Positions 1 to 11,606 of a DNA stretch of 36,431 bases are shown one piece after another. The position numbers and the translations under genes were made by a program. Position 1 is the stretch's first letter; each line of letters starts with the position of its first letter. Origin of the DNA: a virus; IMG/VR virus record IMGVR_UViG_3300035190_000542, positions 1 to 36,431 of that record; one strand, 5' to 3'. The notes beneath the pieces are model-generated. The model did not search any database. It was not told the origin of the DNA and was given only the letters and a program-made list of their open reading frames with translations.

Positions 1-127
1 GGCCACTCGCGGATCAGGGCGTCTTGCTCCTGCGATCCGGCCTCGATCTCGTCGGGGATAACGGCCCAGGTCGTCGGGTAATCAAGCCACTTGTCGCACC
101 ATTCGTAATAGGCGGGCCAGTTGACGG
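1..127. repeat. Contig-end direct repeat, left copy
   Basis: Bases 1-127 are identical to 36305-36431. The repeat lies inside one open reading frame that stays in frame through the join. A length of 127 equals the largest k-mer commonly used by de Bruijn assemblers, so the likely explanation is a circular assembly graph cut open, not a true terminal repeat. The unique genome would be 36,304 bp. Confidence 0.97.
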
Positions 128-302
128 CTTTGCCGGACTTCCACTTGGAAAACGCGCCGTTGTCCAGCATCACGGACTGCCCGATTTGATGGCACACGGC
201 GACCTGATCGGGCCTCATGTGCGAGACGCAGAAGTGCTTGCCCGCCAAGGTCAGCAGGGTCGCGTTCGGCGTAATCGGGGTGCCGTGGTAGCAGATGGTC
301 AC
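1..302 (-). CDS. dpdA: TGT-like DNA deazaguanine transglycosylase (DpdA-like), N-terminal part, split by contig ends
   Basis: Joined to 35914-36304 this gives a protein of 230 aa. It begins with GTG at 302-300, which overlaps the TGA stop of the QueD-like gene; no clear Shine-Dalgarno is seen, so translational coupling is likely. The core motifs of tRNA-guanine transglycosylases appear in order: LDNGAF (about 46-51, Asp47), VIPDE (81-85, Asp84), GANGEY (132-137), HMLRG (167-171) and SVDST (183-187, Asp185). In TGT the equivalent Asp residues bind the base and form the covalent intermediate. The protein is much shorter than bacterial TGT (about 370 aa), as is known for phage DpdA relatives, which exchange guanine in DNA for a 7-deazaguanine such as preQ0. 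A C-terminal CPPTWCGREAH could bind metal. The partner QueD-like gene just upstream supports the role. The exact base and the DNA target are inference. Confidence 0.8.
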   Translation of the reverse strand, partial: MTICYHGTPITPNATLLTLAGKHFCVSHMRPDQVAVCHQIGQSVMLDNGAFSKWKSGKAVNWPAYYEWCDKWLDYPTTWAVIPDEIEAGSQEQDALIREW

Positions 303-613
303 AGAGTGATGGTGGTGCCGCATGGGACCGCCCCTTTCCGCCAAACGTCGATGCGCTTGATGTCGTCGCCCATCAGTTGCGCGATGGCCCTTGCGACGCC
401 GTAGTTTGTCGGCTCGCACACGTCGTCCAGCAGCCGGTGATCGAACGCGGCTTCCAGATATTGCCGAAGACGCGCGTTCATGAACCGCGCATCCTTTGGC
501 GGCGACGCGGGCCAGAACACGCGGACAAACCATGTGTGACCGTGGACTTGCTCGGCGTATTCGCCTTTGTGCGCGGCATCGAACGAGCTGTCGGTGAAGT
601 CCAGCGCGGTCAT
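299..613 (-). CDS. queD: QueD-like 6-carboxytetrahydropterin synthase homologue, 104 aa
   Basis: QueD/PTPS proteins convert 7,8-dihydroneopterin triphosphate to 6-carboxytetrahydropterin on the route to preQ0. The sequence shows the zinc-ligand pattern FDAAH (11-15) and HGH (24-26), then FDHRLLDD (57-64), PTNYGVARAI (68-77) and a C-terminal VWRKGAVPCG. At 104 aa it is slightly shorter than usual. The stretch between AAH and HGH is short and lacks the catalytic Cys normally found a few residues before HGH, and the usual Glu in the C-terminal strand is not evident, so activity may differ from canonical QueD. A GGGAG Shine-Dalgarno precedes ATG 613. The stop overlaps the GTG of the transglycosylase, and the start overlaps the upstream small gene by 4 bp. 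Fold family is confident; reaction is less so. Confidence 0.78.
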   Translation of the reverse strand: MTALDFTDSSFDAAHKGEYAEQVHGHTWFVRVFWPASPPKDARFMNARLRQYLEAAFDHRLLDDVCEPTNYGVARAIAQLMGDDIKRIDVWRKGAVPCGTTITL

Positions 614-3545: not shown

Positions 3546-3894
3546 AACTGCCCCCTAATCTGGCGCTAACCATCGCCCGCTCATAACTTTTGGCGAGAGC
3601 ATAGAACGCAAAGTCTGGCCCGTGATGCCTAATCAGCACGGCCTGAGAGTAGGTCTGCCCATTCCGTTCACAATGAGCGCGAACCCCGTGCAAAATCGTG
3701 GTGTGGTCGCGACCGCCAATCCGCCGGGCAATCTCAGGATACGAGACGTGCGGGCATTCGACAAAGGCGCGGTAATAAGCCTCTTGGCGCGGCTTCGTAA
3801 TGTGCCGACTGCGGTTCTGACCTTTTAGCGCAGCGATGGTTAGGCCGTAATCCTCGGCTACTTCCTGCAAGATGTTGGCTACTGTTTGTCTCAT
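3532..3894 (-). CDS. DnaA domain IV-like DNA-binding protein, 120 aa
   Basis: Residues about 10-75 match the DnaA C-terminal DNA-binding domain: VAEDYGLTIAALKGQNRSR, then KPRQEAYYRAF and the signature GGRDHTTILHGV (60-71) that contacts DnaA boxes. The AAA+ ATPase and other DnaA domains are absent, so it cannot act as a full initiator. It may bind DnaA-box-like sites on the phage origin, or compete with or recruit host DnaA. It sits between two HNH genes in the replication cluster; overlaps of 4 and 14 bp tie it to both. Confidence 0.87.
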   Translation of the reverse strand: MRQTVANILQEVAEDYGLTIAALKGQNRSRHITKPRQEAYYRAFVECPHVSYPEIARRIGGRDHTTILHGVRAHCERNGQTYSQAVLIRHHGPDFAFYALAKSYERAMVSARLGGSFATA

Positions 3895-4259
3895 GTGTTC
3901 CCCTTAAAAGGCCGCTTTGGCCATGTGGTTTTTGTCTTTTGGAACGGGCGGGACGGGATTGACCCGCCTTTGATCGCCCGCCTTGCCTGCTGGCCCGTCT
4001 CACGGCCTTGGCGCTTGGCTTTGGCAATCCTTGTCACGTCACCGCCGGTCTTATCCGTCCGGTGGCAGGTTTTGTGGACCAGCCTTAAGTTCTCGTCGCT
4101 GTCGTCAAACCCTAAAGCCCACGGAATAATATGGTCTAGCTCATACGCTTCACCGGCATGGACCTTTTGCTTGCAAATGTCGCAAATGCCACCGTCACGG
4201 GCGAACAGGCGCAAGCGGCGAGCCTTTGACATGGACGGCCTGGGTGGCGCTGCTGTCAT
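3891..4259 (-). CDS. HNH endonuclease, small, 122 aa
   Basis: Shows CDIC (26-29), ELDHIIPWALG (40-50), DENLRLVHKTCH (55-66): the zinc-supported HNH fold with Asp42-His43, Asn57 and Cys65-His66. The C-terminal 40 residues are basic (KAKRQGRETGQQARRAI, WPKRPFKG). In phages small HNH proteins of this type lie beside RusA or terminase genes and may help resolve or cut DNA. The start at ATG 4259 overlaps the RusA stop; Met10 is an alternative. Confidence 0.87.
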   Translation of the reverse strand: MTAAPPRPSMSKARRLRLFARDGGICDICKQKVHAGEAYELDHIIPWALGFDDSDENLRLVHKTCHRTDKTGGDVTRIAKAKRQGRETGQQARRAIKGGSIPSRPFQKTKTTWPKRPFKGNT

Positions 4260-4618
4260 ATTTCCACCACGCTAATCCTAATGCTCATTAATCCGCCCCT
4301 GATCGGCTCACCAAACGCAATCGAAGGCGTGTTGAAAAGGCTGTCATCAACCCCGAGGGCGTCAGCGATGCCGTCTAGATAGGGTTTAAGCGCGGCCACG
4401 CAGTTATCGCAATCGATGGCGTTGCGGGTCTTAGGATAGACTGTAACGGCGATGTCAAACCGACTATTGGGCAAAATCAAAATGTCACTACGGTAATGAA
4501 TGGCGGCATTCCGTCCCCAGATGCGGTGCGCCTTCACAGCGCGAGCCTTCTCAGCCCAATGAGAGCGACCATTTGGCCACAGGATTTTAGCCGGAAATGG
4601 CAACGTCAGTTCGATCAT
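4256..4618 (-). CDS. rusA: RusA-type Holliday junction resolvase, 120 aa
   Basis: RusA is a homodimeric, Mg-dependent nuclease that cuts four-way junctions made in recombination-dependent replication. The active-site cluster is visible: Asp69, Asp71 (AIDCDNCVAAL, 67-77) and Asp91 in LGVDDSLF (88-95), with KPYLDGIADAL between. The N-terminal FPAKILWPNGRSHW matches the family start, and length 120 is typical. It works with the ERF and NinB proteins of the rightward arm. Overlaps of 4 bp on both sides. Confidence 0.92.
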   Translation of the reverse strand: MIELTLPFPAKILWPNGRSHWAEKARAVKAHRIWGRNAAIHYRSDILILPNSRFDIAVTVYPKTRNAIDCDNCVAALKPYLDGIADALGVDDSLFNTPSIAFGEPIRGGLMSIRISVVEI

Positions 4619-4878
4619 TGCCGCCCCTCAAGTTTAAGTTCCTCAATCGACAGGGCGCGGAGGGCTGCATAAATCGGTGCGCGGGCTTTCTTTTGCTGGA
4701 CGGCCTTCCGCAGTTCGTCTTTTAGCGCGTCACGCTGGCGAGCGATTGCGGCGAGCCGCCGGGCCTTCTCCCCGGCGCTCGTATAGAAAGAATGAGCCTG
4801 CCAATCGTCATGCTTTTGCGGCGTGGGCTTGCGGTGAAAGCCGTAGTTTTTGAACAGGCGTGTGATGGCCTCTAACAT
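4615..4878 (-). CDS. Hypothetical basic helical protein, 87 aa
   Basis: Starts at ATG 4878 (MLEAITRLFKNYGF), one base after the HTH gene stop, and ends overlapping RusA. It contains a long charged helix (EKARRLAAIARQRDALKDEL) that may form a coiled coil. The frame extends upstream but that part is antisense-like and overlies the regulator. Function unknown; early operon position only. Confidence 0.7.
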   Translation of the reverse strand: MLEAITRLFKNYGFHRKPTPQKHDDWQAHSFYTSAGEKARRLAAIARQRDALKDELRKAVQQKKARAPIYAALRALSIEELKLEGRQ

Positions 4879-4879
4879 T

Positions 4880-5074
4880 TCACTTGCTCCGATATTGAAT
4901 GACGGTGACGCGCTCGACGCCAACCATGTTGCAAAGCTGTTCTGTCGGTGCGCGGTGGCCTCGCAGAACGTCGCTAAGGACGGTCTGATTGACGCCATGT
5001 GCCTGGCACCACTCCTTGCGCTTGCCGTCTCCGACAAGCCGTTTAATGGCCTTGATGACCTGTTCTTTCGTCAT
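4880..5074 (-). CDS. HTH (Cro/CI-like) transcriptional regulator, 64 aa
   Basis: A single helix-turn-helix domain: KEWCQAHGVNQTVLSDVLRG (about 19-38) fits the Xre/Cro pattern, with short flanking helices. It is the first gene of the leftward arm; AGGAGG stands just before ATG 5074. Its place next to two opposed promoters suggests that it controls the early switch, as Cro does, or only down-regulates early genes. There is no integrase, so a lysogeny role is not supported. Confidence 0.85.
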   Translation of the reverse strand: MTKEQVIKAIKRLVGDGKRKEWCQAHGVNQTVLSDVLRGHRAPTEQLCNMVGVERVTVIQYRSK

Positions 5075-5124: not shown

Positions 5125-5153
5125 AGTAAAAAGATTGCTTGACGGTCTGCCAA
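5125..5153 (-). promoter_or_regulatory. Candidate leftward early promoter
   Basis: On the minus strand TTGGCA (5153-5148) is followed after exactly 17 bases by TTTACT (5130-5125), matching sigma70 -35 and -10 boxes at 5/6 and 4/6. It would start transcription about 45 bases before the HTH gene and drive the whole leftward arm. Confidence 0.55.
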
Positions 5154-5167
5154 GCGCCGTGTTTTAT
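5139..5167 (+). promoter_or_regulatory. Candidate rightward early promoter
   Basis: TTGACG (5139-5144), a 17-base spacer and TTTTAT (5162-5167) match sigma70 boxes at 5/6 and 4/6. The expected start point (about 5173-5175) coincides with the first bases of the closing helix of the structured RNA. Its -35 lies inside the leftward promoter, so the two are face-to-face and should interfere. Confidence 0.55.
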
Positions 5168-5172
5168 GGTGC

Positions 5173-5412
5173 GTGTAGCGGATGGCGCTAGGGGTAACAG
5201 CCCAAGGCGAAATCCGGGGAAAGTGAACGCGCCCTTTCGGCGGATGAACAAAGTAGCGAGGCAAGTCCGGTGGCCAAGCGCCGCAAACCGGAACCCGGTA
5301 ATCCGGGGTAGCGAAACGGGATTTGGGATCGAAAGGAATTAACCAGCGAGGCCGTCGATTGCGCGGCTGACGAGTCACAAACGAACGGGCTGGCTTTGGC
5401 CATCCGCTACAC
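5173..5412 (+). ncRNA. Candidate structured RNA, about 240 nt
   Basis: This gene-free stretch is closed by a perfect 14-bp helix: GTGTAGCGGATGGC (5173-5186) with GCCATCCGCTACAC (5399-5412). Nested inside are CAGCCC 5198-5203 / GGGCTG 5387-5392; ATCCG 5212-5216 / CGGAT 5241-5245 enclosing GAAAG 5219-5223 / CTTTC 5234-5238; TCCGGT 5266-5271 / ACCGGA 5287-5292; CCCGG 5294-5298 / CCGGG 5303-5307 with a TAAT loop; and GCCG 5351-5354 / CGGC 5364-5367. Single-stranded parts are rich in GAAA and AGCGA. A predicted promoter places the RNA 5' end at the first helix base; the 3' end is 16 bases before the next start codon. It could be a leader (riboswitch or translation control) or a free RNA. It is not recognised as RNase P, tmRNA or a group I intron. 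Folding was by eye. Confidence 0.65.
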
Positions 5413-5428
5413 AACAAGGGAGAACGAC

Positions 5429-5776
5429 ATGACACCGTCAAAGGAACTGCTAAAGCTGGACGACAGGATGTGGGAAGCACATCAGGAATACGCCCACGAA
5501 AACGATAAGGACTGGGCCAACGCTGACGAACTGCGCGAGGACGGCCTCGCAATCGGTGCAGAGGCTTACAAGCTCAACCCCGACAACGATTACGAACACG
5601 ACGCAGGCGATTGGGAATTTTACATCGAAACCGCATTGAATCAGTTTTACCCGCATCAACAATCGCTGGTCGGAGCCGCAGCGTATTACCGCGTCAAAGA
5701 GTGCGCGGAGGAAGCCGCTGCTAACGCTAACAAGGCTCTGGCGATGGCCGCTGACATTACAGGAGCCGCAAAATGA
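5429..5776 (+). CDS. Hypothetical acidic early protein, 115 aa
   Basis: ATG 5429 follows GGGAG; an in-frame start at 5396 would lie in the structured RNA and is rejected. The protein is strongly acidic, with many Asp/Glu/Asn (DNDYEHDAGDWEF), and helical with Ala-rich C-terminus (EEAAANANKALAMAADI). It is the first gene of the rightward arm, a place where phages often carry host-directed or DNA-mimic proteins; that is only a possibility. Its stop overlaps the next ATG. Confidence 0.75.
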   Translation: MTPSKELLKLDDRMWEAHQEYAHENDKDWANADELREDGLAIGAEAYKLNPDNDYEHDAGDWEFYIETALNQFYPHQQSLVGAAAYYRVKECAEEAAANANKALAMAADITGAAK

Positions 5777-8721: not shown

Positions 8722-9060
8722 ATGTGCGAGAACCAGTCATCGGCGCAGGGCAATCAAGCACTAGCCGGACGGATTAAGCAGATGGCCCTCAAGACCGACA
8801 AGCTAACCGCTTCTGAACTGGCTCGGCTCCCCAACGTGCCGATCTTTAACGAACTGCAAGGCGCTACCCTTGCAGCTAAAGCTCGCACAGGTCGCCGCTA
8901 CAGCGTCAGCGCCGCCAAGCGCCGCTATCACGTTCAAATCCTTTCCTTTGCGCTAAATGGCAAAGGCGACACAACGGGCGGTGCCGACATTGAAAAACTG
9001 GCCGATTTCGCCATTTCGGACATTGATCACGTTATTGCCTATCTGGACCGCGTGGCGTGA
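8722..9060 (+). CDS. Hypothetical protein, 112 aa
   Basis: ATG 8722. Mostly helical, with a basic central part (AKARTGRRYSVSAAKRRYHV, about 51-70) that could touch nucleic acid, and an acidic C-terminus (ADFAISDIDHVIAYLDRVA). It ends in GTGA overlap with the methyltransferase-like gene. Function unknown. Confidence 0.7.
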   Translation: MCENQSSAQGNQALAGRIKQMALKTDKLTASELARLPNVPIFNELQGATLAAKARTGRRYSVSAAKRRYHVQILSFALNGKGDTTGGADIEKLADFAISDIDHVIAYLDRVA

Positions 9061-9671
9061 GGGTGCTTGTCGCTTGCGAATACAGCGGAACCGTCCGTGA
9101 CGCATTTCGCGCTCATGGCCATGATGCCATGTCGTGCGATCTATTGCCGACCGACGCGCCCGGACCTCATTACGAAGGCAGTGTTTTAGACATTTTGGAT
9201 GACGGCTGGGATTTAATGATAGGCCACCCGCCTTGCACTGACTTGGCGGTTAGTGGGGCCGCATGGTTTAAGGAAAAGATAGCAGATGGTCGGCAAGCGG
9301 CGTCATTGGCGTTTGTCAGGGCATTAATGGATGCGCCTATTCCGCGCATCTGCATTAAAAACCCTGTTTCGGTTATCAGCAGTCACATTCGCAAGGCCGA
9401 TCAGGTCGTCCAGCCGTGGATGTTTGGGCACATGGAACAGAAAGCGACCTGCCTTTGGCTTAAGGGCCTGCCGCCCCTGCGTCCAACTGCTATGGTTTAC
9501 AGCGAAATGATGCTGCTGCCGAAAAGAGAACGTGAGCGCCTGCACTACCTTCGGCCAAGCCCGACCCGTTGGAAAGAGCGAAGCAAAACCTTTCAAGGCA
9601 TTGCTAACGCGATGGCCGATCAATGGGACGGAACATGGAGTGACCCCCAAATGAGCTTGTTTGCCGTATGA
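9057..9671 (+). CDS. Cytosine-C5 methyltransferase-like protein, 204 aa
   Basis: The N-terminus VRVLVACEYSGTVRDAF (1-17) is an SAM-binding motif I, then HYEGSVLDIL (38-47) and WDLMIGHPPCTDLAVSG (51-67), which contains the PPC motif whose Cys60 would attack cytosine. The later ENP/ENV-type motif reads CIKNPVSVI (99-107): the usual Glu is Lys101. The rest, WMFGHMEQKATCLWLKGLPP (121-140), is typical of a short phage family usually named cytosine methyltransferase. Length 204 leaves little room for a target recognition domain. GTG start overlaps the previous TGA. It may be inactive, altered in chemistry, or work on another pyrimidine. Confidence 0.75.
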   Translation: MRVLVACEYSGTVRDAFRAHGHDAMSCDLLPTDAPGPHYEGSVLDILDDGWDLMIGHPPCTDLAVSGAAWFKEKIADGRQAASLAFVRALMDAPIPRICIKNPVSVISSHIRKADQVVQPWMFGHMEQKATCLWLKGLPPLRPTAMVYSEMMLLPKRERERLHYLRPSPTRWKERSKTFQGIANAMADQWDGTWSDPQMSLFAV

Positions 9672-9918: not shown

Positions 9919-10305
9919 ATGGCAGGCGGTCGCCCCTCCAAATACAGCGACAAGCTGGCAGAGGAGATTTGCCGTCGTCTCGGCAAGGGTGAGCCAATGG
10001 CTCGCATCTGCGATGACGACCATATGCCAAGTTACAACACCATCTGGCGATGGGAGAACGAAAACGCTGAGTTTCGTGAGCTTTCCGCCCGCGCGAAACA
10101 GAATGGCACTCATTTCCTGGCTGACGACACGCTGCGGATCGCGGATGATGACACCATCGACACGCAACGCGCCAAGCTCATGATTGACACGCGGCTGCGC
10201 TTGATTGGCAAGTGGAACGCCAAGGCTTACGGCGACAAACTGCAACAGGAAGTCTCTGGCCCTGATGGCGGCGCTTTGTCGGTTACATGGCTGAAACCAG
10301 AGTAA
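9919..10305 (+). CDS. terS: Terminase small subunit, 128 aa
   Basis: Begins MAGGRPSKYSDKLAEEICRR, a common start of small terminase proteins with an N-terminal HTH (GEPMARICDDDHMPSYNTIW). The middle is helical (ARAKQNGTHFLADDTLRIAD, then QRAKLMIDTRLRLIGKWNAK), matching the oligomerisation region, and the end KAYGDKLQQEVSG is typical. It recognises the packaging site. The 68-bp gap upstream (9851-9918) holds no gene and may be near the pac site. It overlaps the large subunit by 19 bp. Confidence 0.9.
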   Translation: MAGGRPSKYSDKLAEEICRRLGKGEPMARICDDDHMPSYNTIWRWENENAEFRELSARAKQNGTHFLADDTLRIADDDTIDTQRAKLMIDTRLRLIGKWNAKAYGDKLQQEVSGPDGGALSVTWLKPE

Positions 10306-11606
10306 TCCCCTACGCCCCTCGCCGGGTGTTTTTGCCGTTCCATAATCGGACGCAACGCTTTGCCATCGGGGTGGCGCACCGTCGCTGCGGTAAGACGGTG
10401 GCTTGCATCAATGACATGATCCGCAATGCGGTGGTGTCCGATAAGCCCCACTATCGAGCGGCCTATCTTGCGCCATACCTGAAGCAGGCTAAGGACGTGG
10501 CATGGGAGTATCTGAAACGATACAGCCAGCCGATCTGGGCAAAGCCGCCAAACGAGAGCGAGCTATACGTTGAGCTAATCGGCGGCAAGCGCATCAAGAT
10601 ATACGGCGCTGACAACCCCGATGCCCTGCGTGGTGGCTACTTGGATGATGCCACGCTGGACGAATACGCTGACATGTATCCCGGCATCTTCGGCTCAATC
10701 ATCCGCCCGATGTTGGCTGACCGGCAAGGCACAGCTACGTTCATTGGGACGCCGAAGGGGCGCAATGCGTTCTTTGACCTGTTCGAGCGGGCTAAGACCG
10801 ACCCAGACTGGTTCCCGTTCTTTCTGCCTGCTAGCGAGACAGGCATCTTGCCGCAAAGCGAACTGACCGCCGCCGCAAGGGAAATGACGCCAGAACAATA
10901 CGAACAGGAGTTTGAGTGTTCGTTCGAGGCGGCAATCATTGGCGCTTACTACGGTAAGGACATGGCTGAGAGCGAGCGGGCTGGACGGATCACAGACGTT
11001 CCGTATGACCCTGCGCTGCCGGTCTACACGACATGGGATTTGGGCATCGGAGACAGCACGGCGATCTGGTTCTGGCAGGCGCTTGGCGGTGAGATACGGG
11101 TAATAGACTTCTATGAGGCCAGCGGCGAAAGCATCGAGCATTACGCCAAGGTGTTGCAGGCCAAGCCCTACAAGTATGAGGCCGATTGGGTGCCGCATGA
11201 CGCAAGGGTCAGGGAACTAGGCACGGGCCGCACCAGGATCGAGACGATGCTGACGCTTAAGCTCAAGCCCAAGCTGGTTCCTAACCACAAGGTGCTGGAC
11301 GGCATTAACGCAGGCCGCGTTCTGTTGCCGCGTATTTGGTTTGACCGTGAGAAATGCAAGGCCGGGCTGGAATGCCTGCGCCAGTATCGTGCGGACTATG
11401 ACGATAAGGCTAGGGTCTTCCGTGATGGGCCTAAGCACGATTGGACCAGCCACGCGGCTGATGCGTTCCGATACCTTGCAATGGCCTATCGTGAGATTAA
11501 GCCGGAAGCCAAAGCGGCAGACGCGCCAATCAAGGGCATCCGCGATATGACATGGGATGACCTGTTAGCTAACCAGCCGGTGCATACGGGTTACGAACGC
11601 GCATGA
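10287..11606 (+). CDS. terL: Terminase large subunit, 439 aa
   Basis: ATP-driven DNA packaging motor and headful/end nuclease. Walker A is HRRCGKT (31-37); Walker B is ATLDEY (122-127) with catalytic Glu126; motif III-like TFIGTPKGRN follows (151-160). The RNase H-like nuclease domain shows TTWDLGIGDSTAIW (248-261) with Asp251 and, near the end, DWTSHAADAFRYL. Length 439 is normal for podophage-type terminases. It packages into the portal encoded next. Confidence 0.96.
   Translation: MAETRVIPYAPRRVFLPFHNRTQRFAIGVAHRRCGKTVACINDMIRNAVVSDKPHYRAAYLAPYLKQAKDVAWEYLKRYSQPIWAKPPNESELYVELIGGKRIKIYGADNPDALRGGYLDDATLDEYADMYPGIFGSIIRPMLADRQGTATFIGTPKGRNAFFDLFERAKTDPDWFPFFLPASETGILPQSELTAAAREMTPEQYEQEFECSFEAAIIGAYYGKDMAESERAGRITDVPYDPALPVYTTWDLGIGDSTAIWFWQALGGEIRVIDFYEASGESIEHYAKVLQAKPYKYEADWVPHDARVRELGTGRTRIETMLTLKLKPKLVPNHKVLDGINAGRVLLPRIWFDREKCKAGLECLRQYRADYDDKARVFRDGPKHDWTSHAADAFRYLAMAYREIKPEAKAADAPIKGIRDMTWDDLLANQPVHTGYERA

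Follow-up and report, generated by a model that had tools for sequence, protein, structure and literature searches.

An exchangeable non-coding cassette of no known family at the expected start of a phage early transcript

Introduction

Phage morons, the optional genes of phage genomes, normally encode proteins, and helices at the 5' terminus of the ompA type stabilise the mRNA that carries them. Among non-coding elements in phages, the HK022 put RNAs are about 70 nt long, form two stem-loops and lie near both early promoters, with two copies per genome; they bring about protein-independent antitermination through RNA polymerase (PMC9378689). RNA-based counter-defence in phages is represented by Racrs (PMC10651486). 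RppH and RNase E depend on single-stranded 5' ends, so that secondary structure at the 5' end stabilises mRNA (PMC3997798).

Here, we analyse 36,431 nucleotides of viral DNA, positions 1 to 36,431 of IMG/VR record IMGVR_UViG_3300035190_000542 (hereafter, the window), which carry a discrete, exchangeable, non-coding module of no known family in the leader of the rightward early operon. A preliminary description, made from the letters of the window, had presented this stretch as a candidate structured RNA of about 240 nt, possibly a regulatory leader for the first early operon or a free phage RNA.

Results

The cassette is optional and occupies one exact site

Relatives were recruited by two proteins, the first early one (5429-5776) and a conserved one encoded upstream on the minus strand (4618-4881). 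The resulting comparison set comprises about 33 related phage contigs from IMG/VR in which the early leader can be read. The features of the region are as follows.

5139-5144, plus strand: -35 box TTGACG of the rightward early promoter, kept in about 30 relatives
5162-5167, plus strand: -10 box TTTTAT, with N17 spacing to the -35 box, as in relatives
5173-5412, plus strand: cassette, carried by the window, L013 and L038; other relatives lack it
5173-5186, plus strand: left arm of the terminal inverted repeat, GTGTAGCGGATGGC, the 5' strand of closing helix P1; the same in all three copies
5173-5232, plus strand: 5' block common to both alleles, with only 4 substitutions over ~60 nt
5187-5208, plus strand: predicted hairpin P2 (GCT..GGGT AACA GCCC..GGC), within the conserved 5' block
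5233-5381, plus strand: inner segment, weakly alignable with allele B (L038)
5382-5412, plus strand: 3' block CGAACGGGCTGGCTTTGGCCATCCGCTACAC, 31 nt, identical in the window and L038
5399-5412, plus strand: right arm of the terminal inverted repeat, GCCATCCGCTACAC, the 3' strand of P1
5413-5422, plus strand: Shine-Dalgarno block AACAAGGGAG, kept in nearly all relatives; the putative mRNA 5' end in cassette-free phages
5429-5776, plus strand: first early gene downstream, encoding a 115-aa protein with no Pfam or PHROGs match

Three of the ~33 phages (the window, L013 and L038) carry the cassette, and about 90% of the relatives lack it. The early leader is empty in about 30 of them and typically reads TTGACG-N17-TTTTATGG…/AACAAGGGAG (slash, junction); in nearly all relatives the leader is short, and its typical form is TTTTATGGTGGC, then AACAAGGGAG. 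The nearest relative without the element, L002 (first protein 92% identical), aligns on both flanks and lacks exactly 5173-5411, joining 5172 to 5412, so the coordinates first given for the element were right to within one base. At the same site, L013 holds a copy identical to that of the window at 236 of 238 bases, and L038, first met via its neighbouring gene, holds a 269-nt second allele (allele B), 29 nt longer overall. The window and L038 agree over ~60 nt at the 5' end and over the final 31 nt, and the middle is barely alignable. All three copies have the same orientation.

The cassette of the window is 240 nt long and non-coding. The perfect 14-bp closing helix of the preliminary description is present, its strands being 5173-5186 and 5399-5412, and is the sole exact inverted repeat of at least 14 bp whose arms lie within 600 nt of each other anywhere in the 36-kb window; an exact inverted repeat of that length and spacing arose in one of 20 dinucleotide shuffles. 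In L013 the last two bases of the right arm are TT instead of AC, leaving 12 Watson-Crick pairs and removing the outermost two. Another exact inverted repeat, of 13 bp (3177-3189/3270-3282), lies in the leftward early region.

Exact scans of IMG/VR, including scans with a conserved 16-mer, with the inverted repeat and with internal sequence, returned no copies beyond L013 and L038; other 16- and 17-mer matches there were chance, and so was L016. Annotated phage and plasmid records held no copy, a seed search of 84,980 GTDB genomes confirmed no copy of allele A, and a covariance model derived from the window, L013 and L038 copies gave no further strong match among 30 related records. A weak model match in L038 (685-898, E 0.0007) falls on the minus strand of a neighbouring stretch and was set aside as noise.

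The cassette fits between a conserved promoter and the Shine-Dalgarno block

The promoter predicted in the preliminary description stands just upstream as TTGACG-N17-TTTTAT and is strongly conserved in relatives; a generic sigma-70 scan listed no promoter at this position, because the -10 box lacks an A at position 2. Judged from the promoter, +1 would be expected at 5173-5175, the first bases of the helix. The cassette thus begins at the expected +1 and stops just before the conserved Shine-Dalgarno block, and the early mRNA would open with its ~240 nt. The proposal of an early-operon leader therefore holds: its place between these two marks is exact, and the relatives reveal a discrete module.

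The gene for the first early protein, which is small and acidic, occupies a highly mosaic slot (window and relatives L020-L038); relatives place one of several differing small genes directly after the same promoter and AACAAGGGAG block. Promoter and block look as if they were recombination joints. A host search with the first early gene gave no match in 84,980 genomes.

The cassette and its neighbouring genes vary independently

Third codon positions of the first gene and the core genes terL, portal and capsid are 56-85% identical between the window and L013. Despite these divergent genes the cassettes of the two phages are 99% identical, and this disparity points either to a recent exchange of the cassette or to strong selection on it. 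Neither the repressor-side module nor the first gene varies in step with it. The right junction of L013, CTAC-TT-AACAAGG, resembles the TTAACAAGG leader of L036, and tentatively this may reflect transfer of the cassette into a different flank, a reading that rests on two bases.

No early-region gene of the window is confined to carriers, and a protein partner dedicated to the cassette is accordingly not in evidence. An HNH endonuclease gene in the leftward early operon (3891-4259, minus strand) occurs in cassette-free relatives too and is therefore not linked to the cassette.

Elsewhere in the window, a DNA methyltransferase-like gene (9057-9671, plus strand) is common to L038 (96%) and was not found in the other compared relatives. 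By its terminase (10287-11606, plus strand) the phage falls closest to Rhodoferax phage P26218 and to HTVC010P-like pelagiphages, at <50% identity, and a partial gene at the left end of the record (3-533, minus strand) matches a PHROGs family of queuine tRNA-ribosyltransferases.

The closing helix accounts for the stability of the fold

The minimum free energy (MFE) fold of 5173-5412 reaches -101.5 kcal/mol (z -3.69), and the inner helices drawn earlier appear in it. With the 14-bp arms, the fold z is -3.3 to -3.7; without the 14-nt arms it falls to 0.0 (window), 0.01 (L013) and +1.05 (L038), the genome background having a mean of -0.18 and sd of 1.0. The reverse strand, having the same arms, folds at z -2.4 to -2.8 (-2.77 for 5173-5412). 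Since the excess vanishes once the arms are removed, the inner helices stand at chance level, such as any sequence of like composition would form, and the 14-bp closing helix accounts for all of the unusual stability. The at least five nested inner helices of the preliminary description, although found in the MFE fold, do not exceed chance, and a structured RNA built on them is not supported, the interior of each of the three copies being as stable as its shuffles. One inverted-repeat pair can thus be enough for a strong fold z-score, which should not be taken as a multi-helix RNA.

P1 shows no compensatory change, and most pairs of P2 are kept in L038 with clear compensation absent. With effectively two alleles, which give little power, a home-made Sankoff-type alignment was matched by shuffled middles in 65 out of 100 runs, and no significant result came from placing the window helices on sequence similarity alone. 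That alignment had suggested hairpins common to both alleles and changed in compensation (for example, positions 95-98/116-119 of the element against 93-96/114-117 of the L038 element), which are not counted because shuffled middles score equally. Conservation of the inner structure is therefore not claimed.

The cassette belongs to no known RNA class and encodes no conserved protein

That the element matches no nameable RNA class was confirmed: the Rfam 15 covariance models (including group I/II introns, RNase P, HEARO and riboswitches) gave no match in the window at the gathering score, the search at E up to 10 gave a sub-threshold isrB match only, on the opposite strand, the L038 allele had no Rfam match, and tRNA/tmRNA searches found none in the cassette. 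Short motifs noted by eye (GAGGCAAGUCCGG; in L038, CGGUAAGAG) had suggested RNase P, an idea dropped because Infernal gives no RNase P match. A retron ncRNA, which would have a1/a2 inverted repeats with a reverse transcriptase beside them, was rejected too: inverted repeats are present, but the scan of large window proteins showed no such enzyme.

The earlier view that no convincing reading frame covers the stretch also stands, as none is conserved between the two alleles, and a conserved protein was looked for and not found. An antisense frame is open in both alleles (79 and 89 codons), but it is not preserved between the two, and one allele is 29 nt longer. The cassette contains no terminator-like site (U-tract), nor does it pair with the Shine-Dalgarno block in a conserved way, this block being fully open in L038. 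Both expression platforms of a riboswitch or attenuator leader, a terminator and conserved Shine-Dalgarno sequestration, are thus lacking, and a classical one is unlikely.

Discussion

We tentatively favour, at somewhat less than an even chance, an accessory, non-coding, horizontally exchanged leader cassette whose effect on the early transcript would be in cis and would most simply consist in hiding the 5' end of that transcript in a helix. Transcribed from the conserved early promoter, the cassette would supply the 240-270 nt with which the early mRNA begins, +1 being placed from the promoter, and the closing helix would bury the mRNA 5' end and leave the Shine-Dalgarno block outside. The likeliest effect would be to shield the early mRNA against decay that depends on its 5' end or, in broader terms, to modify early transcription; protection is the simplest because RppH and RNase E need single-stranded 5' ends, and a terminator- or ribosome-site-based switch would be less likely than either. 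The discrete presence or absence of the cassette, its exact placement, its complementary arms and its exchange between phages are observed, as is the lack of an attenuator and of conserved Shine-Dalgarno pairing; transcription, the +1 and the whole of the functional step are inferred. In favour of the leader are the exact empty site in L002, the empty leader of about 30 relatives, the one site shared by two differing alleles, and what these have in common, a helix that joins the two ends and starts level with the expected +1, together with the adjoining ~45 nt, the arms being identical and the interior divergent. The 99% identity of the cassettes of the window and L013, and the lack of a carrier-specific early gene, count for it as well. 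Against it, the interior is at chance level, so nothing demands a role at the RNA level beyond the terminal helix; about 90% of relatives manage without the cassette; a simple 5' clamp would not require 240-270 nt, or the conserved ~45 nt beside the left arm; and P1 lacks compensatory change and is short of the two outermost Watson-Crick pairs in L013.

Conserved ends with a divergent middle would also suit an RNA acting in trans, an 'RNA moron' that would be the first early product, be processed from the mRNA and hit a host target, for example a defence system, with the ends as scaffold and the middle as the target-facing part. Such an accessory role agrees with carriage by 3 of ~33 relatives, with the first position behind the early promoter and with allele exchange independent of repressor type and first gene, and Racrs show that RNA-based counter-defence exists in phages (PMC10651486). 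However, the cassette has no promoter, terminator or recognised processing site of its own, its interior is not unusually folded, and genome and Rfam searches gave no host RNA counterpart, so we find this explanation somewhat unlikely. An accessory phage RNA of a new kind is an equally doubtful reading: a non-coding module between +1 and the Shine-Dalgarno block with a fixed scaffold and an allele-specific core, its RNA the first early product. If true, an exchangeable module would slot into an existing early operon, touching neither +1 nor the Shine-Dalgarno block.

A fold excess that comes wholly from the arms, on both strands, recalls instead a non-autonomous, MITE-like mobile DNA element, in which the 14-bp repeats would be transposase ends, the interior filler, and the +1 position one tolerated insertion spread later by recombination. 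The perfect terminal inverted repeats (14 bp in the window, 12 bp in L013), the missing coding capacity, the conserved ends, variable interior and precise empty site all agree with this, but no copy has a target-site duplication (GGTGC/GTGTAG and CTACAC/AACAAGG against empty GGTGCCAACAAGG), and every copy lies at the early-leader site, with none elsewhere in IMG/VR by exact 16-mer, inverted-repeat and internal scans. The missing duplication and single insertion site thus disfavour a mobile element, which we consider unlikely; no allele-A copy was confirmed in 84,980 genomes, and the window proteins scanned include no transposase or recombinase. An invertible switch, with the repeats as recombination sites flipping the 240-bp segment, would explain inverted repeats flanking a short segment beside a promoter, yet all three copies have one orientation and no serine or tyrosine recombinase is among the window proteins scanned, which leaves it very improbable. 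By position only, a put-like effect on RNA polymerase is possible, the nascent leader binding the host enzyme and allowing readthrough of downstream terminators: the cassette lies just downstream of the early promoter, as does HK022 putL (PMC9378689), no protein partner was seen, and long genes rightward of it run in its direction. It is, however, 3-4 times longer than put and without the two-hairpin put fold, has no second copy on the leftward early transcript, is lacking in relatives with a similar early operon, and is followed by terminator-like sites that are not above shuffles; we judge antitermination of this kind improbable.

Compared with described systems, the cis-acting leader that we favour shares with HK022 put a non-coding nature, a proposed action in cis and a place in a phage early leader directly behind the promoter, but it differs in its 240-270 nt, its one long end-to-end closing helix, its single copy and its optional presence in the group. 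Like ompA-type 5' helices, it would bury the 5' end in a helix from +1 with the Shine-Dalgarno block predicted to stay outside; unlike them, the helix closes a 212-nt interior and not a short loop, and stabilisation is a proposal. As a non-coding RNA candidate in a phage genome it resembles GOLLD, ROOL and other large phage-associated RNAs, although it is smaller, matches no Rfam family and is without covariation support. With MITEs and other non-autonomous insertion elements it has in common its short, non-coding make-up, perfect terminal repeats, conserved ends, variable interior and exact empty site, and it departs from MITEs in having no target-site duplication, a single insertion site and no known autonomous partner. 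It is uncommon for a non-coding block with two alleles to be gained or lost as a unit exactly where transcription is inferred to start, and closely related phages with and without the leader offer a clean natural comparison.
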